IMG/VR virus record: IMGVR_UViG_3300025695_001455
Location: 1 to 31,345 of that record
Origin: a virus
Strand: one strand, 5' to 3'
Length of the DNA: 31,345 bases
Part shown: piece after piece, positions 1,926 through 31,345 of the stretch
How positions within the stretch are numbered: the stretch's first letter is position 1
Layout: the number at the start of each line of letters is the position of its first letter
Position numbers and translations under genes: made by a program
Notes under the pieces: generated by a model
Databases searched by the model: none
What the model was told of the DNA's origin: nothing
Seen by the model: only the letters and a program-made list of their open reading frames with translations

Positions 1926-4430
1926 TTAAAATTTTTCTACCTTAAGAGTTACTTTCGGTCTACCCAAACTAACATTCATAGTTATAGATATAGAACCAGA
2001 CTTAGGTAATCTTTTATTTAACATCTCATCTGATATAGGGTCCTCTATATACTTGCGTATCGTCCTATTTATTTCTCTAGCACCATAAATCTTATCATAC
2101 CCTTCATTTAAAATGAATAACTTAGTTTTTTTATCGACTCTAAGCTTAAAACCATTTTCTGATAACCTTTTAGCTAAATTCTTAATTTGTATATCAATAA
2201 TCTTAGTTATATCATCTTCACTTAAATAATTAAAATGTATTATCTCATCTAAACGGTTAATAAATTCTGGTTTAAAAGTACGCTTCATGTTCTTATCGAT
2301 TATACTCTTAATATTCTCTAAATCATCTGTTTTAGAAGAAGAATCACTAAACCCCATTTTCGTACCGAAATCCTGAACCTCTTTCAATCCTATATTGGAA
2401 GTCATTATGATTAACGTATTTTTGAAGTTAATCTTTCTACCATTAGCATCAGTAAGAAAACCCTCGTCCAGTAATTGCAACATAACATTGAAAATATCTG
2501 GGTGAGCTTTCTCTATCTCATCAAAAAGTATTAGGGAGTAAGGTTTATTCTTAACTTTCTCAGTTAACTGACCACCCTCGTTATAACCAACGTATCCAGG
2601 AGGGGCACCTATAATCTTACTTATATTAAACTTTTCTGAATATTCAGACATATCCAATCTTATTATAGAATCAGAAGAACCAAAAACACTTTCAGCTAAA
2701 GACTTAGCTAATTCGGTTTTACCAACCCCAGTAGGTCCAATAAAAAGGAAAGAACCTATCGGTTTAGATTGTTCTCTAAAACCAGTTTTATTTCTTTTTA
2801 TAGAGGACACAACCTTTTCGATAGCCTCACTTTGACCAATAACTGAACCAGACAAAGTATCACTCATTTTAAGTAGTTTATTTATATCAGATTCGGTTAC
2901 CCTACTAACAGGTATACCAGTCATCATAGAAACAACATTAGAAATCATTTCTGGTTTGATAACCACCCTAGATTCATTAATACTCAATCTCCAAGAAACA
3001 TTAGCTTCTTCTAACTTAACTAATAATTTCTTCTCTTTATCCCTTAAACCAGCAGCTTTTTCAAAGTTCTGTGATTTAACCACACTAGACTTCTCATCTC
3101 TTATCTCCTTTATAGCTAATTCTAGATCTTTAATTTCTTTTGGTGTTTTAGTTGATACCTGAGCCCTAGAACCAACCTCATCCATAATATCGATAGCTTT
3201 ATCAGGGAACTCTCTGTTGGTTATATACCTATCAGCTAGATTTACAATTTCATCTATAGATTCATCTAAATACTCAACCTTATGGTAATCTTCGTACTTA
3301 TTCTTTATGTTTTTAAGTATCTCTTTAGTTTCCTCCAAAGAAGTTGGGTTAACCATAACTTTTTGGAATCTTCTATCTAAAGCACCATCCTTTTCGATAT
3401 GTTCTCTGTATTCGTCTATAGTGGTAGCACCTATACATTGTATTTCACCCCTAGCCATAGCTGGTTTAAATACGTTAGCAGCATCTAAAGATCCAGATGA
3501 ATTACCAGCACCGACTATGGTATGAATCTCATCTATAAATAAAATAACATCAGTATTCTCCTTAACCTCATCTATTACCGATTTAATTCTCTCCTCAAAT
3601 TGACCTCTATACTTGGTACCCGCAACTAAAGAAGTCATATCTAATGTTACAACTCGTTTACCGATCAAAGTCCTAGGACATTCACCATTAGCTATCTTAA
3701 TAGCTAAACCCTCAGCTATAGCAGTCTTACCCACACCTGGGTCCCCTATCAATATAGGGTTATTCTTCTTCCTTCTACTTAATATTTGACAAACCCTGTC
3801 AACCTCATGAGATCTACCTATAACTGGGTCTAATACATCCTCTAAAGCTAATTTGGTTAAGTCTCTACCAAAACCATCTAACATAGGTGTCTTACTTTTA
3901 GAGTTTTCATTAGTCTTCCTTCTAATTCTAGGTGACTCATCTTCGTTCGGTGTTATATTCATATTTGTTTTATTTGTTAATTGTTTTATTTTTCTATATA
4001 CAAATGTTTTTGTTAGACCAAAATCTTTAAACAACTTAACGAAAGCAGAATCTACTTCCATTGAGATCTTAAAAAAAGTTTCTACTGTCACGTACTCTTC
4101 AGTCTTTTTCTTCAAAACACTATTTCTTATTACATCGTGTAACTCAGTTTCAAATGGTAATATGGTACTAGAACCATCAGCTAGACCATCTGACGTTCTT
4201 TTTATTAGGTTATACATGTCATCTATAAGTAAGTCGAAATCAGTTACCTTATTTTTAACTATTTCTCTAACCATATTATCTGTAACTAGTATACCGTAAA
4301 CAACATGTTGTAATCTAAGTAATGAGTCATCATATTTTAACGCTAAAGACTGCCCTTTTGTAAAAGCCACCCTAAGTTCGTTAGTCATTCTTTCCTTCAT
4401 ATTATAATTTGTTTTAAACAAAGATAGCAT
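1926..4430 (-). CDS. clpC: ClpC-like Hsp100 AAA+ unfoldase
   Basis: This 834-residue protein has the layout of a class I Clp ATPase. It has an N-terminal Clp-N-like helical region (about 10-145). AAA+ domain 1 has Walker A GDPGVGKT at 229-236 and Walker B VILFIDE at 295-301. A UVR-type coiled segment (about 453-472, NFEKAAGLRDKEKKL) is typical of ClpC rather than ClpB. AAA+ domain 2 has Walker A GPTGVGKT at 565-572, pore loop GYVGYNEGG at 612-620 and Walker B SLILFDE at 632-638. After the SNIG motif there is an MGF tripeptide at 692-694, where bacterial ClpC has its VGF loop for docking to ClpP. The protein is therefore expected to unfold substrates and may feed them to host ClpP. A TATTTATA octamer 42 nt upstream suggests late expression, next to fibre and head genes. 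The family call is very secure; the role in infection is inference. Confidence 0.95.
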   Translation of the reverse strand: MLSLFKTNYNMKERMTNELRVAFTKGQSLALKYDDSLLRLQHVVYGILVTDNMVREIVKNKVTDFDLLIDDMYNLIKRTSDGLADGSSTILPFETELHDVIRNSVLKKKTEEYVTVETFFKISMEVDSAFVKLFKDFGLTKTFVYRKIKQLTNKTNMNITPNEDESPRIRRKTNENSKSKTPMLDGFGRDLTKLALEDVLDPVIGRSHEVDRVCQILSRRKKNNPILIGDPGVGKTAIAEGLAIKIANGECPRTLIGKRVVTLDMTSLVAGTKYRGQFEERIKSVIDEVKENTDVILFIDEIHTIVGAGNSSGSLDAANVFKPAMARGEIQCIGATTIDEYREHIEKDGALDRRFQKVMVNPTSLEETKEILKNIKNKYEDYHKVEYLDESIDEIVNLADRYITNREFPDKAIDIMDEVGSRAQVSTKTPKEIKDLELAIKEIRDEKSSVVKSQNFEKAAGLRDKEKKLLVKLEEANVSWRLSINESRVVIKPEMISNVVSMMTGIPVSRVTESDINKLLKMSDTLSGSVIGQSEAIEKVVSSIKRNKTGFREQSKPIGSFLFIGPTGVGKTELAKSLAESVFGSSDSIIRLDMSEYSEKFNISKIIGAPPGYVGYNEGGQLTEKVKNKPYSLILFDEIEKAHPDIFNVMLQLLDEGFLTDANGRKINFKNTLIIMTSNIGLKEVQDFGTKMGFSDSSSKTDDLENIKSIIDKNMKRTFKPEFINRLDEIIHFNYLSEDDITKIIDIQIKNLAKRLSENGFKLRVDKKTKLFILNEGYDKIYGAREINRTIRKYIEDPISDEMLNKRLPKSGSISITMNVSLGRPKVTLKVEKF

Positions 4431-5415: not shown

Positions 5416-6077
5416 TGGATAATCTAGTTAAAATATACGAAAAAACTTTATCTAAAGAGGTGTGTGATTTTATAATCAATGAGTTTGAAACATCTAGTGA
5501 ACAAAGTGAAGGTATAAGTGGTGCTGGTGTTAATAAATCAGTTAAATCATCTACAGACCTTATGATACACTTAAACCTAGATAACGATAATTGGTTATAC
5601 ATATACGACTATCTGAGAGAAAATTTATTGTCTAATCTAGTTGATTACATCACACAAAACCCATTCATGACCATAAACGGTGATTTTAAATCTAAATCTT
5701 CTGCGGTTATGAGTGCACAATCCTGTTATGTAGCAGGTAATAATGGTGTACCACATATGCAAATGCAAAGATATATAGATGATCAAGGGTACTATGCTTG
5801 GCATCACGAGAACGAAGGAGGGTCAACCTCCAAAAGAGAATTATTCTTTATATATTACCTTAACGATGTTGAGGGTGGTGAAACTGAATTTAAATTCAAT
5901 CAACAAAAAGTTAAACCAGAAACTGGTAAATTAATTATGGCACCAGCCCTATGGACACATAAACATAGAGGTAACCCACCATTAAAAGGTCAAACTAAAT
6001 ACATTATCACTGGTTGGATAGAAAAAACAGATGACCATCAGATAGCTCAAGAATTTGCTGATGATTATCTAATATAA
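5415..6077 (+). CDS. 2-oxoglutarate/Fe(II)-dependent oxygenase (prolyl-4-hydroxylase-like)
   Basis: This 220-residue protein has the iron-binding facial triad and 2OG site of the P4H-like dioxygenases. The motif YYAWHHE gives H130-x-E132. The distal histidine is H182 or H184 in WTHKHRG, and K195 in TKYIITGW is placed to bind 2-oxoglutarate. FFIYYLND (144-151) and GGETEF (154-159) are the expected core strands. HxE in place of HxD is an accepted variant. Similar proteins are common in T4-like marine phages, usually without a known substrate. Here the enzyme is close to a fibre with Lys in X-Lys-Gly sites, so protein lysyl or prolyl hydroxylation is one possibility; nucleic-acid modification is another. 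Confidence 0.88.
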   Translation: MDNLVKIYEKTLSKEVCDFIINEFETSSEQSEGISGAGVNKSVKSSTDLMIHLNLDNDNWLYIYDYLRENLLSNLVDYITQNPFMTINGDFKSKSSAVMSAQSCYVAGNNGVPHMQMQRYIDDQGYYAWHHENEGGSTSKRELFFIYYLNDVEGGETEFKFNQQKVKPETGKLIMAPALWTHKHRGNPPLKGQTKYIITGWIEKTDDHQIAQEFADDYLI

Positions 6078-6113: not shown

Positions 6114-6860
6114 ATGGATGGTATTATAAAAAGTTTTAATGTGAACGACAGTTTAGCTCAAGATATTTGGGTTAACCATGATTCCGATAATTTTAAAGAA
6201 GTTAAATTAGATAAAGATATCAGAGATAGATTAATATCTATAACTAAAGACTTTATGGATAGTATGGGTATAGAAACTGTTGTGGTTGAAGATATCATTA
6301 TAGTAGGTAGTATAGCTAATTATAACTGGTCTAAGTATTCAGATATCGACTTACACGTAGTTATAGATAAAGAAAAAGTAACAGATGACACCTTATTAGC
6401 TGATGAATTTTTTACTGCTAAAAAAGAGTTATACAACATAAAACACGATATAAGTATAAAAGAGTTTGACGTTGAGTTATACGCACAAGACATCAAGGAG
6501 ACAGTAGATTCAGATGGTATATACAGTGTATTATACAACAAATGGATTAAAACTCCCACCAAAGATAAAGGTGAGGGTGTTATAGATAAAAAGGGTATAA
6601 TAAAAAAAGTTAAAGATTTCGATAAAAAATTAACTAATATAATTAAAGAAACAGACCCAGAAGCTAAGATATTAAAAATAGATAAATTAAAAGCTAAGAT
6701 AAGAGCCTACAGAAAAAGTGGTTTAACCAAGGGTGGTGAGTATAGTACAGAGAACTTAGTATTCAAATATCTTAGAAGATCTAAGTACCTAGAACAGTTA
6801 AGGGATTTAGGGATAGACATTAAAGATGAGCTATTATCATTAGAAAATGAAGTATATTGA
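6114..6860 (+). CDS. Nucleotidyltransferase-fold protein
   Basis: Residues 62-84 (IIVGSIANYNWSKYSDIDL) carry the signature of the DNA polymerase beta-like nucleotidyltransferase fold: Gly-Ser (65-66), ten residues, then Asp77-x-Asp79 for metal binding, followed by HVVID. A third carboxylate may lie in KEFDVELYAQD. The C-terminal 100 residues are basic and helical. The fold transfers nucleotidyl groups to small molecules, RNA or protein, or acts as a MNT-type antitoxin or toxin; the substrate cannot be read from sequence. A GTG at 6099 would add five residues (YLLH); ATG at 6114 is preferred. The gap from the oxygenase gene is 36 nt. Confidence 0.8.
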   Translation: MDGIIKSFNVNDSLAQDIWVNHDSDNFKEVKLDKDIRDRLISITKDFMDSMGIETVVVEDIIIVGSIANYNWSKYSDIDLHVVIDKEKVTDDTLLADEFFTAKKELYNIKHDISIKEFDVELYAQDIKETVDSDGIYSVLYNKWIKTPTKDKGEGVIDKKGIIKKVKDFDKKLTNIIKETDPEAKILKIDKLKAKIRAYRKSGLTKGGEYSTENLVFKYLRRSKYLEQLRDLGIDIKDELLSLENEVY

Positions 6861-6922: not shown

Positions 6923-7291
6923 ATGAGACCAGTAGGTTCAGAGAAAATAGTAAACCCAGACGAAAAATTGTTAAGAATTTTAGAGATTGCTGGTATAAAT
7001 AAAGACAGTATGAATGAAAATGTATCTAAAACTGGTACACCATCAGATGTCTTACACGAAGCATTAGCCTCTGACGGTACCGAATATGGTATTGTACAGG
7101 AAGAAAAACATGTTTACATAAAGGTTAAAAAAGAATCTGGTTACGAATATATTAGTGGTGTTCAAAACATACACGAACATTCTTACAGATCATACGCAGA
7201 AGCACTTAAGCATTTAAATATGATGTTTAAACAAATCAACGAAAATGTTGGTCATTCTGAAAATATAGATGTTTTAAAAAAAAAAGTCTAA
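6923..7291 (+). CDS. Putative head-core protein, N-terminal part before the frameshift
   Basis: The frame gives 122 residues and stops at TAA 7289-7291, directly after an A10 run. Residues 11-27 (NPDEKLLRILEIAGINK) resemble the N-terminal targeting motif of the head proteins at 20512-24891, with AGIN in place of MMGI. The middle (about residues 50-100) is a small beta-rich domain, with KHVYIKVKKESGYEYISGV. The acidic coding sequence that follows is open only in the -1 frame and has no start codon near this stop. I therefore read this and the next entry as one gene of about 314 residues joined by a -1 shift or by an assembly error in the A run. The family is not recognised. Confidence 0.75.
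   Translation: MRPVGSEKIVNPDEKLLRILEIAGINKDSMNENVSKTGTPSDVLHEALASDGTEYGIVQEEKHVYIKVKKESGYEYISGVQNIHEHSYRSYAEALKHLNMMFKQINENVGHSENIDVLKKKV
7271..7291 (+). other. A10 slippery run and -1 frameshift point
   Basis: Zero-frame codons are GTT TTA AAA AAA AAA GTC TAA. The ten A residues at 7276-7285 contain A AAA AAA heptamers. A -1 slip gives AGT CTA ACT GAA (S L T E) and then 193 open codons. Programmed slippage or a homopolymer miscall would look the same here. Confidence 0.7.
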
Positions 7292-12288: not shown

Positions 12289-12320
12289 CAAAAGTAGAAA
12301 AAAGTTTGTTTTAAAACAAA
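12289..12320 (-). promoter_or_regulatory. Bacteroidota-type promoter, leftward, likely leaderless
   Basis: On the minus strand TTTG (12317-12320), a 20-nt spacer and TACTTTTG (12289-12296) match the consensus. The ATG at 12284 follows after only TCCT, so the transcript should start at or beside the start codon. Confidence 0.7.
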
Positions 12321-12336
12321 TAATTATTTAAGTTTG
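12305..12336 (+). promoter_or_regulatory. Bacteroidota-type promoter, rightward, likely leaderless
   Basis: TTTG (12305-12308), a 20-nt spacer and TAAGTTTG (12329-12336) are followed by TCCC and the ATG at 12341. It overlaps the leftward promoter by 16 nt, and the two are mirror images in spacing. Confidence 0.75.
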
Positions 12337-17398: not shown

Positions 17399-19789
17399 TT
17401 ATTTTCCGTCAGCTGGGTATTCAGTAACATAAGCAACCGCTTTGTTTACCGCTAATAATACACCTACACCTGTAGATAACATATATACTTGAGCAGACTC
17501 ACCTTCTTGAAGGATTAGTTCAGCAGTACCATAAGGGTTACCAAATAGTTGGTTGAATCTAACTATAAATTCAGATGATCCAGTACTATCACCAGCTAAA
17601 TCAGCTATAACTATAGTACTAATAGTACCAGCAGTAGCAGCAGTAAAGTCGATGTTCCCGTTAGTTACAGCAGGCGCGTCAACGACCATTATAGCTTCAG
17701 CAGAACCAACAACCACATATGATGCACCAGTTATATCAAGCTTATTACCGTCGAATATATATCTTGGGTTCTCAGCTAAATACTCTACGTCATCAATGTT
17801 ACCTTGTAATACTGTATCAGCAGAAGCTCTAGCAACTAATTCAGTTGATAATGCAGCGTCGTTAGACGTTTCATAATCAGATAAGTCACCAGCAACAGCG
17901 TCGATGTTATCTTGTAATACAACATCAGCAGAAGCTCTAACAACTAATTCAGTTGACAATGCAGCATCGTTAGACGCTTCATAATCAGATAAGTCGGTAG
18001 CAACGGCACTAATGTCATCTTTTAACACAACATCAGCAGAAGCTCTAACAACTAATTCAGTTGACAATGCAGCGTCGTTAGACGTTTCATAATCAGATAA
18101 GTCACCAGCAACAGCGTCGATGTTATCTTGTAATACAACATCAGCAGAAGCTCTAACAACTAATTCAGTAGACAAGTTATCTTCGATAACTCCTTCAGCA
18201 GCGATAGCTCTTGCAGTTTCAACAGAAACAGCTTCACTTACTTCGATGTCTGTAGCGAAATCATTGTTAAGGTTATCTATTCTAGTCGTCAATGAAGCAT
18301 CTCCAGATATTCTTGCAGTCTCTTCAGCAGTGATATCAGTAGATAAATCGTTGTCAGCAGCAGCTCTATCCACTAATTCAGTTGATAAGTTATCAGCAAT
18401 AACTCCTTCAGCAGCTAGTGCTCTTGTTTCTTCAGCGTCAATGTTACCTTGTAACACAACATCAGCAGAAGCTCTAGCAACTAATTCAGTTGATAAGTTA
18501 TCTTCGATAACACCTTCAGCAGCTAATGCTCTAGTTTCTTCAGCATCAACGTCAGCGATTCTATCAGCAACTTCAGTAGACAATGCAGCATCGTTAGATG
18601 TTTCATAATCAGATAAGTCAGAAGCGATTGAACCTTCAGCAGCGATAGCTCTAGTTTCTTCAGCATCAATGTTACCTTGTAATACAACATCGGCAGCAGC
18701 TCTATCTACTAATTCAGTCGATAAGTTATCTTCAATAACACCTTCAGCAGCTAATGCTCTAGTTTCCTCAGCATCAATATTACCTTGTAATACCGTATCA
18801 GCAGAAGCTCTAGCAACTAATTCAGTTGACAATGCAGCGTCGTTAGACGTTTCATAATCACTTAAGTCAGAAGCAATTGATCCTTCAGCGGCAATAGCTC
18901 TAGCAGTTTCAACAGAAACAGCTTCACTTACTTCGATATCCGTAGCAAAATCATTGTTAAGGTTATCTATTCTAGTTGCCAATGAAGCATCTCCAGATAT
19001 TCTTGCAGTTTCTTCAGTAACAATTTTACCTTCTAACACTGTATCAGCAGAAGCTCTATCTACTAATTCAGTTGATAAGTTATCTTCGATAACTCCTTCA
19101 GCTGTTTCAGCTCTCAATTGCTCAGCATCAACATCAGCAATTCTGTCTGCAACTTCAGTTGATAATGCAGCATCGTTAGATGTTTCATAATCAGCTAAAT
19201 CAGAAGCGATTGAACCTTCAGCAGCGATAGCTCTAGTTTCTTCAGCATCAACGTCAGCTTCTCTATCAGAAATTTCCTGAGTTAAGTCACCAGCAACACC
19301 ATCGATGTTGTTTTGTAATTGAGTATCAGCAGAAGCTCTATCAGCAACCTCAGTTGATAATGCAGCATCATTAGACGCTTCATAATCACTTAAGTCAGTA
19401 GAAACACCATCAATGTTACCTTGTAACGTTGAGTCAGCAGCAGCTCTATCTACTAATTCAGTAGACAAGTTATCTTCGATAACTCCTTCAGCAGCGATAG
19501 CTCTTGCAGTTTCAACAGAAACAGCCTCACTTAATTCGATGTCTGTAGCGAAATCAGCACTAAAATTGTCTAATCTAGTATCTAATGAAGCCTCAGCAGC
19601 ATCACTAGTAGTTTTATTGTCAGTAATTACTGTCTCTAAAGATGCATCTACCGACGCACTAAGAGCTTCTTCAGCACTTACTCTTGTTTCCAAAGATGTG
19701 TTCAAGTCTTCTAAGAACTCGAAGTTACCATCTAATTGGGTGAAACTTAACGCTTGTGTTAAGTTCTTTCTTAAATTTAAATTTGCCAT
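17399..19789 (-). CDS. Coiled-coil tail fibre with repeats
   Basis: The 796-residue protein starts MANLNLRKNLTQALSFTQLD and shares the pattern LRxxLxxALS(Y/F)TxLDxNFE with the collagen-like fibre at 1862. Residues about 30-670 are repeats of short helices (ETRAIAAEGVIEDNLSTELV, RASADTVLQGNID, DLSDYETSNDAALSTE) typical of trimeric coiled-coil fibre shafts. The last 120 residues lose the repeat and become beta-rich (YIFDGNKLDITGASYVVVG and onward, ending AVAYVTEYPADGK), the likely tip or a small knob. TATTTATA lies 47 nt upstream and a terminator follows. Two fibres with the same attachment motif but different shafts suggest alternative or paired adhesins. Confidence 0.85.
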   Translation of the reverse strand: MANLNLRKNLTQALSFTQLDGNFEFLEDLNTSLETRVSAEEALSASVDASLETVITDNKTTSDAAEASLDTRLDNFSADFATDIELSEAVSVETARAIAAEGVIEDNLSTELVDRAAADSTLQGNIDGVSTDLSDYEASNDAALSTEVADRASADTQLQNNIDGVAGDLTQEISDREADVDAEETRAIAAEGSIASDLADYETSNDAALSTEVADRIADVDAEQLRAETAEGVIEDNLSTELVDRASADTVLEGKIVTEETARISGDASLATRIDNLNNDFATDIEVSEAVSVETARAIAAEGSIASDLSDYETSNDAALSTELVARASADTVLQGNIDAEETRALAAEGVIEDNLSTELVDRAAADVVLQGNIDAEETRAIAAEGSIASDLSDYETSNDAALSTEVADRIADVDAEETRALAAEGVIEDNLSTELVARASADVVLQGNIDAEETRALAAEGVIADNLSTELVDRAAADNDLSTDITAEETARISGDASLTTRIDNLNNDFATDIEVSEAVSVETARAIAAEGVIEDNLSTELVVRASADVVLQDNIDAVAGDLSDYETSNDAALSTELVVRASADVVLKDDISAVATDLSDYEASNDAALSTELVVRASADVVLQDNIDAVAGDLSDYETSNDAALSTELVARASADTVLQGNIDDVEYLAENPRYIFDGNKLDITGASYVVVGSAEAIMVVDAPAVTNGNIDFTAATAGTISTIVIADLAGDSTGSSEFIVRFNQLFGNPYGTAELILQEGESAQVYMLSTGVGVLLAVNKAVAYVTEYPADGK
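17790..19560 (-). repeat. Internal DNA repeats in the coiled-coil fibre gene
   Basis: Blocks of 30 to more than 85 nt recur with few changes. The clearest pair is about 18230-18330 and 18920-19020, both coding ETARISGDASLxTRIDNLNN and its neighbours. Such repeats allow length change by recombination. Confidence 0.8.
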
Positions 19790-29367: not shown

Positions 29368-29592
29368 ATGGTTAATGATGAAGAACTGATCGAGCTGATC
29401 ACACAGTATAAAATGTTGGAATCAGAATATACGATAATATTTAATCATATATCTGATAAGGTTAAACACCTCGATAACCCCGTACTTAGGTTTATTGAAG
29501 TGGCCGAAAATTATAAGCACCCCGAATTATTAATAACCATGTTGAATCGTGGCGATTATACAGAATTACTATGGGGGATAATTAACCCATAA
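29368..29592 (+). CDS. Small hypothetical protein, 74 aa
   Basis: The family is not recognised. It is helical and acidic (NDEELIELITQYKMLESEYT). It is the last gene of the operon from 27967. It is followed by the repeat region rather than by an obvious terminator hairpin. Confidence 0.55.
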   Translation: MVNDEELIELITQYKMLESEYTIIFNHISDKVKHLDNPVLRFIEVAENYKHPELLITMLNRGDYTELLWGIINP

Positions 29593-29600
29593 TTACAGAT

Positions 29601-29800
29601 AAAAAATTCCCCAGATATTTTTTTGAAAAATGGTTTCTTAAATACATGTGGGTCCCTTTCTGGTAGGATCAAAAATTCTGAATAAAATTTTCCCCAGATA
29701 TTTTTTTGAAAAATGGTTTCAAATATAACAATGGGTCCCTTTTAGAAAAGACCTAAAATTTCAGAAAAAAATACCCTCAAAAATTTTTTTAGAAAAAGTT
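29601..29800 (+). repeat. Imperfect tandem repeats of about 82-83 nt, function unknown
   Basis: CCCCAGATATTTTTTTGAAA begins at 29609 and again at 29692 (83 nt apart), each followed by ATGGTTTC and later GGGTCCCTTT. A third, diverged copy starts at about 29774 (CCCTCAAAAATTTTTTT). No gene is seen from 29593 to 30040. Confidence 0.7.
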
Positions 29801-30040: not shown

Positions 30041-30682
30041 TTATCCAATCTCAACAACTTCACCTGAAACTTTCACACTACCTACTAAATTATCAATAGC
30101 AAATCTACGCAAGGTTTGTGTTTTACCTTTTGCTTTTCTCTCGATTAATTTCTTTGCTATCGTTTTCGGTGCTGACTTAACGACCTTAAAAGTACCTTTC
30201 TTTTCGATAGTCTTATTAATGGTTTGACCTAACAAAGATAATTTTCTTGTATTAGTGTTAAAAGCTAAAGCATTGTTAAAGTAAATATCGTTACTAACTT
30301 TTTTCTTTTTAGGTTGAGATAACTCATTCAAAGCTATTTCTAAACTATCTTTAACGGCTTTCTTATACTCGTTTAGTGTTAAACCATTGGTATTGATAGT
30401 ATCATAATTAAAAGCATCAACATCAACACTTGATAAATCAAAGTTAGCATATATGTTAGTGTCCTTTTTTAACATATTTTTGTAACTCGCACCGATATTA
30501 ATCACTTGATTCGCCACTTCTGTATTATTAGACTTTTCGCTTGAATAACCTTTTACCGAAACGAAAGAAACGCCGTTTAAGTTAGTGTTGTTAATTAATG
30601 ATTCTAACTGCTCAATAGTTAGGTTTTCGTAAGAGTTTAACACTTCTAAGATTAACTCCTTTTTGTTGTTTAAATTTAACAT
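30041..30682 (-). CDS. Hypothetical protein, 213 aa, with strong early-type promoters
   Basis: The start is ATG 30682 (MLNLNNKKELILEVLNSYEN); the codons upstream lie inside the leader and promoter. The N-terminal half is Asn/Ser-rich and helical. The C-terminal third is basic (KKGTFKVVKSAPKTIAKKLI, RKAKGKTQTLRRFAIDNLVG), which suggests nucleic-acid or acidic-protein binding. There is no known motif. Three tandem host-type promoters upstream suggest very strong early expression, as for a host-takeover or abundant DNA-binding protein; this is inference. A terminator follows. Confidence 0.7.
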   Translation of the reverse strand: MLNLNNKKELILEVLNSYENLTIEQLESLINNTNLNGVSFVSVKGYSSEKSNNTEVANQVINIGASYKNMLKKDTNIYANFDLSSVDVDAFNYDTINTNGLTLNEYKKAVKDSLEIALNELSQPKKKKVSNDIYFNNALAFNTNTRKLSLLGQTINKTIEKKGTFKVVKSAPKTIAKKLIERKAKGKTQTLRRFAIDNLVGSVKVSGEVVEIG

Positions 30683-30718
30683 AATTTTTAGTTTTTTTGT
30701 TTTGATTAATAATTGATA

Positions 30719-30922
30719 CAAATATATGGGTTTCAAAATTACCCTGCAAACTTTATTGTAAAAAAAATTAAATTATTTTAGTAGGAAAGTTTAAAGCACC
30801 ATCACAAATATAATGGTAATAAAATTATCCTGCAAACTTTATTGTAAAAAAAATTAAATTATTTTAGTAGGAAAGTTTAAAGCACCATCACAAATATAAT
30901 AATAAAAAAAATATCCTGCAAA
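30719..30922 (-). promoter_or_regulatory. Triple tandem Bacteroidota-type promoters in 86-bp repeats
   Basis: On the minus strand there are three perfect TTTG-N20-TATATTTG promoters: 30747-30750/30719-30726, 30833-30836/30805-30812 and 30919-30922/30891-30898. The period is exactly 86 nt. Between them the units share a leader-like ATGGTGC and AAACTTTCCTACT block. Each promoter points to the gene starting at 30682; only the proximal one has the AAC-rich leader found also upstream of 31244. Confidence 0.85.
30727..30898. repeat. Two near-identical 86-bp direct repeats and a partial third
   Basis: The unit with CCTGCAAACTTTATTGTAAA and TAGGAAAGTTTAAAGCACCA occurs twice back to back with almost no changes; a third copy (from 30914) is truncated by the terminator. 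A diverged end (AATAGGAAAGTTTAA) is seen again at 31331-31345, upstream of the next promoter, so the array unit probably continues outside the window. Confidence 0.85.
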
Positions 30923-30931
30923 CTTTATAAT

Positions 30932-30961
30932 AAAAAAAAAGAGGCTCATTTCTGAACCTCT
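30932..30961 (-). terminator. Intrinsic terminator of the 89-aa gene
   Basis: GAGGCTCA (30941-30948) pairs with TGAACCTC (30953-60; one G-T pair on the transcribed strand) around TTTC, with a run of nine A on the plus strand giving the U tract on the minus strand. It insulates the promoter array from the gene upstream. Confidence 0.85.
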
Positions 30962-30974
30962 CTATTTTGTTTGA

Positions 30975-31244
30975 TTAGATTAAACCTGCTGAATAATCTG
31001 CAATAATCTTCTCTAGTTGTGGTAGGCAATCTTTAGCACCTCTACCCTTTAAGCCGTAATACTTTTTAATCTGTGTAAACTTAATCCCTCTAAAAGTCAT
31101 ACCTCTAGACATTACTGATAGGTTGAACTTGTGTGTTGCTAGTTGATAACCGAAATAATCCACATCATTCCCACTTGCGTGTACTGATGGTGTTTGTAAT
31201 TCTCCGTTTCTCACTGACTCTAATGCTTTCTCAAAATCTGTCAT
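30975..31244 (-). CDS. Hypothetical protein, 89 aa, early type
   Basis: The family is not recognised. The protein begins MTDFEKALESVRNGELQTPS; the middle (VDYFGYQLATHKFNLSVMSRG) and the basic KFTQIKKYYGLKGRGAKDCL suggest a small compact fold, perhaps nucleic-acid binding. It has its own host-type promoter and terminator, the same arrangement as the gene at 30041. Confidence 0.6.
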   Translation of the reverse strand: MTDFEKALESVRNGELQTPSVHASGNDVDYFGYQLATHKFNLSVMSRGMTFRGIKFTQIKKYYGLKGRGAKDCLPQLEKIIADYSAGLI

Positions 31245-31279
31245 AATTTGTTTTTTTTATATGTGATTAATAACTGATA

Positions 31280-31311
31280 CGAATATAGTTGTTTAAAAAT
31301 TACTAGCCAAA
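31280..31311 (-). promoter_or_regulatory. Bacteroidota-type promoter of the 89-aa gene
   Basis: On the minus strand TTTG (31308-31311), 20 nt and TATATTCG (31280-31287, one mismatch). The leader GTATCA(A/G)TTATTAATCA that follows is nearly the same as that of the promoter at 30719. Confidence 0.7.
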
Positions 31312-31345
31312 CTTTTTTACTAATTATTTCAATAGGAAAGTTTAA

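Follow-up and report, generated by a model that had tools for sequence, protein, structure and literature searches.

Why would a virus set three promoters in exact 86-bp steps before a single small gene? The question is raised by a virus contig of 31,345 bases, analysed here over its full length as the window, which carries near its right end a tandem promoter array with all elements on the minus strand. The host group of this virus is Bacteroidota, and the array is made of promoters of the Bacteroidota type. We put the array forward as a duplicated early-promoter cassette whose role would be to boost transcription of a single early gene, a reading to which we assign a probability of roughly two in three. 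On the minus strand, the right end reads in the order 89-aa gene, terminator, array (30939-30719) and 213-aa gene, with the features below; predicted transcription starts follow the 4-5 nt rule of PMC6847099.

31322..31345, minus: third, partial copy of the 54-nt block (TTAAACTTTCCTATTGAAATAATT), 92% over 24 nt, ending with the record
31280..31311, minus: fourth, weaker promoter-like site before the 89-aa gene; TTTG 31311-31308, -7 element TATATTCG 31287-31280; matrix score 11.4
30975..31244, minus: 89-aa gene, relatives in 29 viral loci
30938..30963, minus: terminator closing the 89-aa gene; 11-bp stem with 4 G-C pairs, then a T-run
30891..30922, minus: promoter 1 (distal); TTTG 30922-30919, -7 element TATATTTG 30898-30891; matrix score 18.8
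near 30886, minus: predicted start of promoter 1, leader of about 204 nt
30837..30890, minus: conserved 54-nt block between promoters 1 and 2 (TGATGGTGCTTTAAACTTTCCTACTAAAATAATTTAA...), identical to the second copy
30805..30836, minus: promoter 2; -7 element TATATTTG 30812-30805; matrix score 23.3
near 30800, minus: predicted start of promoter 2, leader of about 118 nt
30751..30804, minus: second copy of the 54-nt block, from the repeat search and comparison with contig L147
30719..30750, minus: promoter 3, the 213-aa gene's own; -7 element TATATTTG 30726-30719; matrix score 19.8
near 30714, minus: predicted start of promoter 3, leader of about 32 nt
30041..30682, minus: 213-aa gene, 62-72% identical to orthologues in three other phage contigs
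29996..30019, scored on both strands: terminator-like hairpin between converging genes, downstream of the 213-aa gene

Geometry and promoter class of the array

Tandem Repeats Finder (TRF) delimits an array at 30735-30939 with a period of 86, 2.4 copies, 94% matches and 0 indels, and an independent repeat search returns start-to-start spacings of 86 and 86 between the copies, together with a 66% fourth copy at 31279-31328. An earlier note on this DNA had described three 86-bp repeats; the spacing is indeed exact, but the copies number 2.4, since the third unit is common to the repeat over 41 nt only and continues beyond that as the leader of the 213-aa gene. The motif TTTG-N20-TATATTTG occurs three times on the minus strand (30922-30891, 30836-30805 and 30750-30719), with no ORF between the sites. 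The further claims that the array is insulated upstream by a terminator (11-bp stem and T-run, 30963-30938) and faces a single downstream gene (213 aa, 30041-30682) are both borne out.

The primary sigma factor of Bacteroidota recognizes a -33/-7 consensus of TTTG and TANNTTTG, revised to TAHHTTTG; in Flavobacterium johnsoniae, transcription starts 4-5 nt past the -7 element and leaders average 33 nt (PMC6847099). The -7 elements of the window fit this consensus in all three units (TATATTTG) and in the fourth site (TATATTCG), and the -33 TTTG stands at a fixed gap of 20 nt in 3/3 units. Over the whole record, TTTG-N17-23-TANNTTTG is matched 8 times against 1.85 expected, a count reached by 0/100 shuffles. 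The likeness to the sigma-ABfr promoters of Bacteroidota thus covers both elements and extends to the predicted leader (about 32 nt against the host mean of 33), with one difference: the -33 element is weak in the host set, whereas in the phage array it is strong and fixed at the 20-nt gap (PMC6847099).

The sites were also scored with a matrix of 46 positions, for which 106 promoters of related phages, and not the record itself, had served as the training set. Units 2, 3 and 1 score 23.3, 19.8 and 18.8 and are the top three sites on either strand, and the earlier reading of host promoters in exact 86-bp steps is supported; the next-best site in the record scores 15.8, and ten random windows contain no site at or above that value. 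All three fall below the training median (18.8-23.3 against 32.9), and the array sites are good, not extreme, members of the relatives' promoter class. An E. coli-type sigma-70 identity was dropped, as a scan for -35/-10 elements (TTGACA / TATAAT) found 11 sites against 11.6 expected in shuffles, the chance level. The fourth and fifth ranks by the relatives' matrix belong to two divergent promoter-like sites at 12289-12336, which overlap around the palindrome TTTGTTTTAAAACAAA.

Differences between the copies are confined to the promoter spacers. With the terminator junction set aside, units 1 and 2 differ at 4 bases and units 2 and 3 at 6 bases over their common 41 nt, in both cases entirely within the 20-nt spacer. 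The chance of such a pattern is about (20/84)^4 x (20/41)^6, roughly 4 in 100,000, by our own arithmetic treating changes as independent and random over the compared stretches. It follows that drift or exchange affected the spacer, whereas the -33 element, the -7 element and the 54-nt block stayed constant, so that the earlier description of repeats kept uniform applies to the transcribed block and not to the promoter spacers. The fact that the copies differ in bases also argues against an assembly artefact. The leader of unit 3 (TATCAATTATTAATCA...) resembles the leader behind the fourth site, which indicates that unit 3 is the gene's own promoter and that units 1 and 2 are additions. That fourth site is, as had been noted, a diverged unit preceding the next gene (TATATTCG, low score of 11.4, before the 89-aa gene), and the end of the record at 31345 falls inside the block upstream of it.

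The locus in related phages

The 213-aa gene converges on plus-strand genes, and its product has no Pfam, NCBIfam or credible PHROG match; matches in the PDB (E 0.02-0.6) and in PHROG (E 0.03 and up) were judged to be chance, and a predicted structure (mean pLDDT 37.6 from 4 sequences) was set aside. The 89-aa protein likewise has no match in Pfam or PHROG. Against 50,697 phage records, neither the last 25 kb of the record (Megablast) nor the 213-aa and 89-aa genes (tblastn) found a match, and bacterial genomes yielded no orthologue of the 213-aa protein. Orthologues are present in viral contigs L002 (72% identical), L039 (70%; the same contig as L009) and L040 (62%), and the gene order 89-aa then 213-aa is kept in L039. 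Elsewhere in the record, a second tandem repeat (29591-29797; period 83, 2.5 copies, 77% matches) lies in non-coding sequence behind the last plus-strand genes, and long in-frame tandem repeats within large ORFs at 69-1431 and 17796-18829 (periods 72/216 and 108) are like those of repetitive fibre-like proteins.

Upstream of the 213-aa orthologue, L002 carries a series of small genes, of which most have a promoter of the array type to themselves and several also have terminators; 17 same-strand matches to the promoter pattern fall within 6 kb, a few of which overlap or sit inside ORFs. The equivalent region of the relatives holds about one such promoter per 300-400 bp, and this small-gene cluster with its dense promoters appears to be early-type. 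Such density bears on the proposal, made in the earlier note, that the array titrates a host factor: two extra copies add little to the relatives' promoter density, which makes titration unlikely. We regard as very improbable the wider notion that the repeats serve as replication iterons or as a sink for a host factor; direct repeats, A+T-rich sequence and regular spacing would suit it, but what repeats at the core is the promoter consensus, which the small-gene clusters of the relatives contain throughout, and a gain of two sites where there are dozens can titrate little.

Two tandem promoters with no ORF between them precede the 213-aa orthologue in L002 (164 bp apart) and L039 (167 bp apart); L040 has one clear promoter there. 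Close promoter neighbours are uncommon, with 26 pairs among 235 promoter matches, several of them inside ORFs. The 86-bp triple array is absent from every relative found, in which dispersed promoters do go on. A near-identical 55-nt stretch ending in GTTTAACTTTYRCCCCTAAACATTAAACAAAAAAAAATAAAAAA is also seen before the 213-aa gene's own promoter in two relatives (about L002 5860-5915 and L039 4872-4927). Could the array be a duplication that arose by chance, has no effect and persists merely on account of its recent origin? The identity of the two block copies, and the lack of three copies in any relative found, would agree with that explanation; the tandem promoters before the same gene in two relatives, the related module of L147 described below and the avoidance of the -33 element, the -7 element and the block by the changes speak against it, and we consider it improbable.

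Our preferred account remains the duplicated early-promoter cassette. Each 86-bp cassette would consist of one host-type (primary sigma) promoter and the conserved 54-nt block, two of them lying downstream of the 89-aa gene's terminator and upstream of the promoter that belongs to the 213-aa gene. Host RNA polymerase could then start at three places, with every transcript entering the 213-aa gene, and repeated loading of the polymerase on a single early gene would be the simplest mechanism. As a result, this one small gene would be transcribed more often at the early stage, without depending on the adjacent gene. The 86-bp step just exceeds the polymerase footprint. In favour of the duplicated cassette are the sites with their period and matrix ranks, the constancy of -33, -7 and block between copies, the tandem promoters at the orthologue in L002 and L039, the block module in L147, the upstream terminator and the dense promoters of the relatives' small-gene clusters; against it are array scores below the relatives' median, the one clear promoter of L040, an imperfect distal -7 element in L147 and the conservation of the block.

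We infer that all three promoters are used, that their use is early, that output is raised and that the block may be more than a spacer. Early timing is suggested by the host-type promoters and by the small-gene cluster of the relatives. Engineered clusters of tac promoters, repeated in tandem like the array but man-made, give a stepwise gain in transcription in E. coli as the number of copies grows, up to five (PMC3293061). Stronger early transcription from the phage array is a plausible prediction.

In phage T7, the early promoters A1-A3 are three tandem host-polymerase promoters ahead of the early genes. The array resembles them in having several host-type promoters before one predicted-early gene with no gene between, and since T7 has this arrangement, the array's kind is already known; the triple array would be a fairly ordinary way to switch a gene on strongly and early. 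The T7 promoters differ in serving an entire early operon and in lacking exact repetition, whereas the array has Bacteroidota-type promoters, an exact 86-bp period and one gene. A literature search for tandem early promoters in Flavobacterium phages returned nothing on point. The array illustrates one way in which a phage of Bacteroidota may boost expression of just one early gene, and the conserved 213-aa early protein is worth testing for a role in host takeover. As compact natural elements, the array and versions of it with a single promoter are candidates for use in gene expression in Bacteroidota.

The conserved block and a phage RNA family

Exact searches of viral contigs for the block with its -33 element, and for the block alone, found none; contigs L146 and L147 were found via the promoter pattern. 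The closest module, in L147, consists of a promoter-like site, a block (TGCTGGTGCCTTAAACTTTCGTAATAAAAATAATTTAA) and a promoter, with 87 bp from TTTG to TTTG and a distal -7 element one base short (TACTTTG). Its block is 81% identical to that of the array over 57 nt (E 2e-8 within the fetched loci), in keeping with the earlier observation that the AAACTTTCCTA block is conserved. The module precedes a 186-aa gene that itself stands behind an MKKLV lipoprotein-like gene, and the 213-aa gene of L002 likewise follows an MKKLV lipoprotein-like gene; homology of the 186-aa protein to the 213-aa family is not supported. Homology of the array block to the inter-promoter sequences of L002 and L039 was dropped (shuffles reach the score in 22% and 78% of cases), as was a three-codon mini-ORF at the block start (ATG GTG CTT TAA), because the predicted start site falls inside it.

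The conservation of the block suggests more than promoter dosage, and the block may be an operator, a short RNA or a mere spacer. The inter-promoter segment of L002 offers a comparison, as it is a structured RNA, and similar RNAs lie behind promoters in many related phages. These RNAs, of about 60-70 nt, combine two variable hairpins with a fixed core, GTA[GT]ACTCCRAC, and occur in several copies per phage:

L002: structured RNA copy at 5798-5863
L003: copies at 6347 and 9000, and at 7037 and 5863 on the minus strand
L006, L008, L010, L051, L079, L109 and others: further copies

Scanning viral contigs for the RNA pattern turned up 80 stretches, some of which match by chance. A covariance model (R1) built from 22 sequences gave 132 matches at E up to 0.01 in the fetched loci, which partly overlap, corresponding to 109 distinct aligned rows. 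All 5/5 modelled pairs have changes on both sides, and the covariation score is 0.246 against 0.138 in shuffles, on an alignment that is biased towards the model, having been fitted to it. Rfam at the gathering threshold gave no match in seven loci, six of which hold RNA copies, nor a credible weak match for one RNA copy. The pattern occurs in 21 stretches of a genome collection of 257 billion bases, which makes the RNA rare in bacterial genomes and marks it as mainly a phage feature, and it mostly stands alone (an ORF follows within 60 nt, with no promoter between, in 3/74 copies).

By analogy, promoters 1 and 2 might serve the block itself, as a small non-coding RNA gene or a controlling leader duplicated in this phage. 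The block is conserved in L147 and begins right past the -7 element, the same slot in L002 holds a structured RNA with its own promoter, and the array block ends in a T8 run. Yet no helix with compensating changes links the copies of the array to that of L147, where the T-run is just T5, and neither Rfam nor the known RNA family matches the record (in the 31-kb sequence R1 has no match with filters on, and at best 4.8 bits with filters off); we find this alternative unlikely, though the least so of those weighed against the duplicated cassette. Rather less likely, at about the level of chance duplication, is an operator at which a phage or host regulator would switch the array. Its appeal lies in AAACTTTC, the best-kept part of the block, which recurs before the fourth promoter and in L147, and in AAACTTT, which forms an inverted pair with AAAGTTT at the -33 element; AAAGTTT is, on the other hand, simply part of the -33 region in these promoters, and no candidate regulator was identified.

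More broadly, and with considerable doubt, promoter and 54-nt block may form a recurring, duplicable cassette of Bacteroidota phages in which the transcribed block is a regulatory element, either RNA or operator. This cassette occupies the position that in a relative is taken by a small structured RNA present in multiple copies, so early genes of these phages may have interchangeable promoter-driven non-coding modules in front.

Hairpin-spacer promoters in related phages

Together with the phage RNA family, a class of promoters with hairpin spacers may matter more than the array. The fetched loci contain 615 promoter-like sites; in 60 of these an inverted repeat of 7-8 bp fills the gap from -33 to -7, against 1 in shuffled sequence. 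The characteristic form is a perfect 8-bp stem with a 4-nt loop, often GAAA, and the stem sequence varies widely while pairing is kept; the array's own spacers show at most short, imperfect versions.

L003: hairpin-spacer promoters at 225, 1650, 4763 and 6315
L010: hairpin-spacer promoter at 4215
L057, L061, L095, L109 and others: further hairpin-spacer promoters

A terminator fused into the promoter, a hairpin formed in DNA and an operator dyad are all conceivable identities for such a spacer. Hairpin-spacer promoters less often have a separate terminator upstream (1/44) than other promoters do (23/238), a weak contrast that lends weak support to fused terminators. The literature searched for promoter-terminator overlap held nothing on point. 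Long terminator-like hairpins with T-runs are seen at L003 7920, L010 10110, L046 456, L058 335 and L092 1538, where they overlap the -33 element and spacer of the next promoter, so that terminator and promoter share bases.
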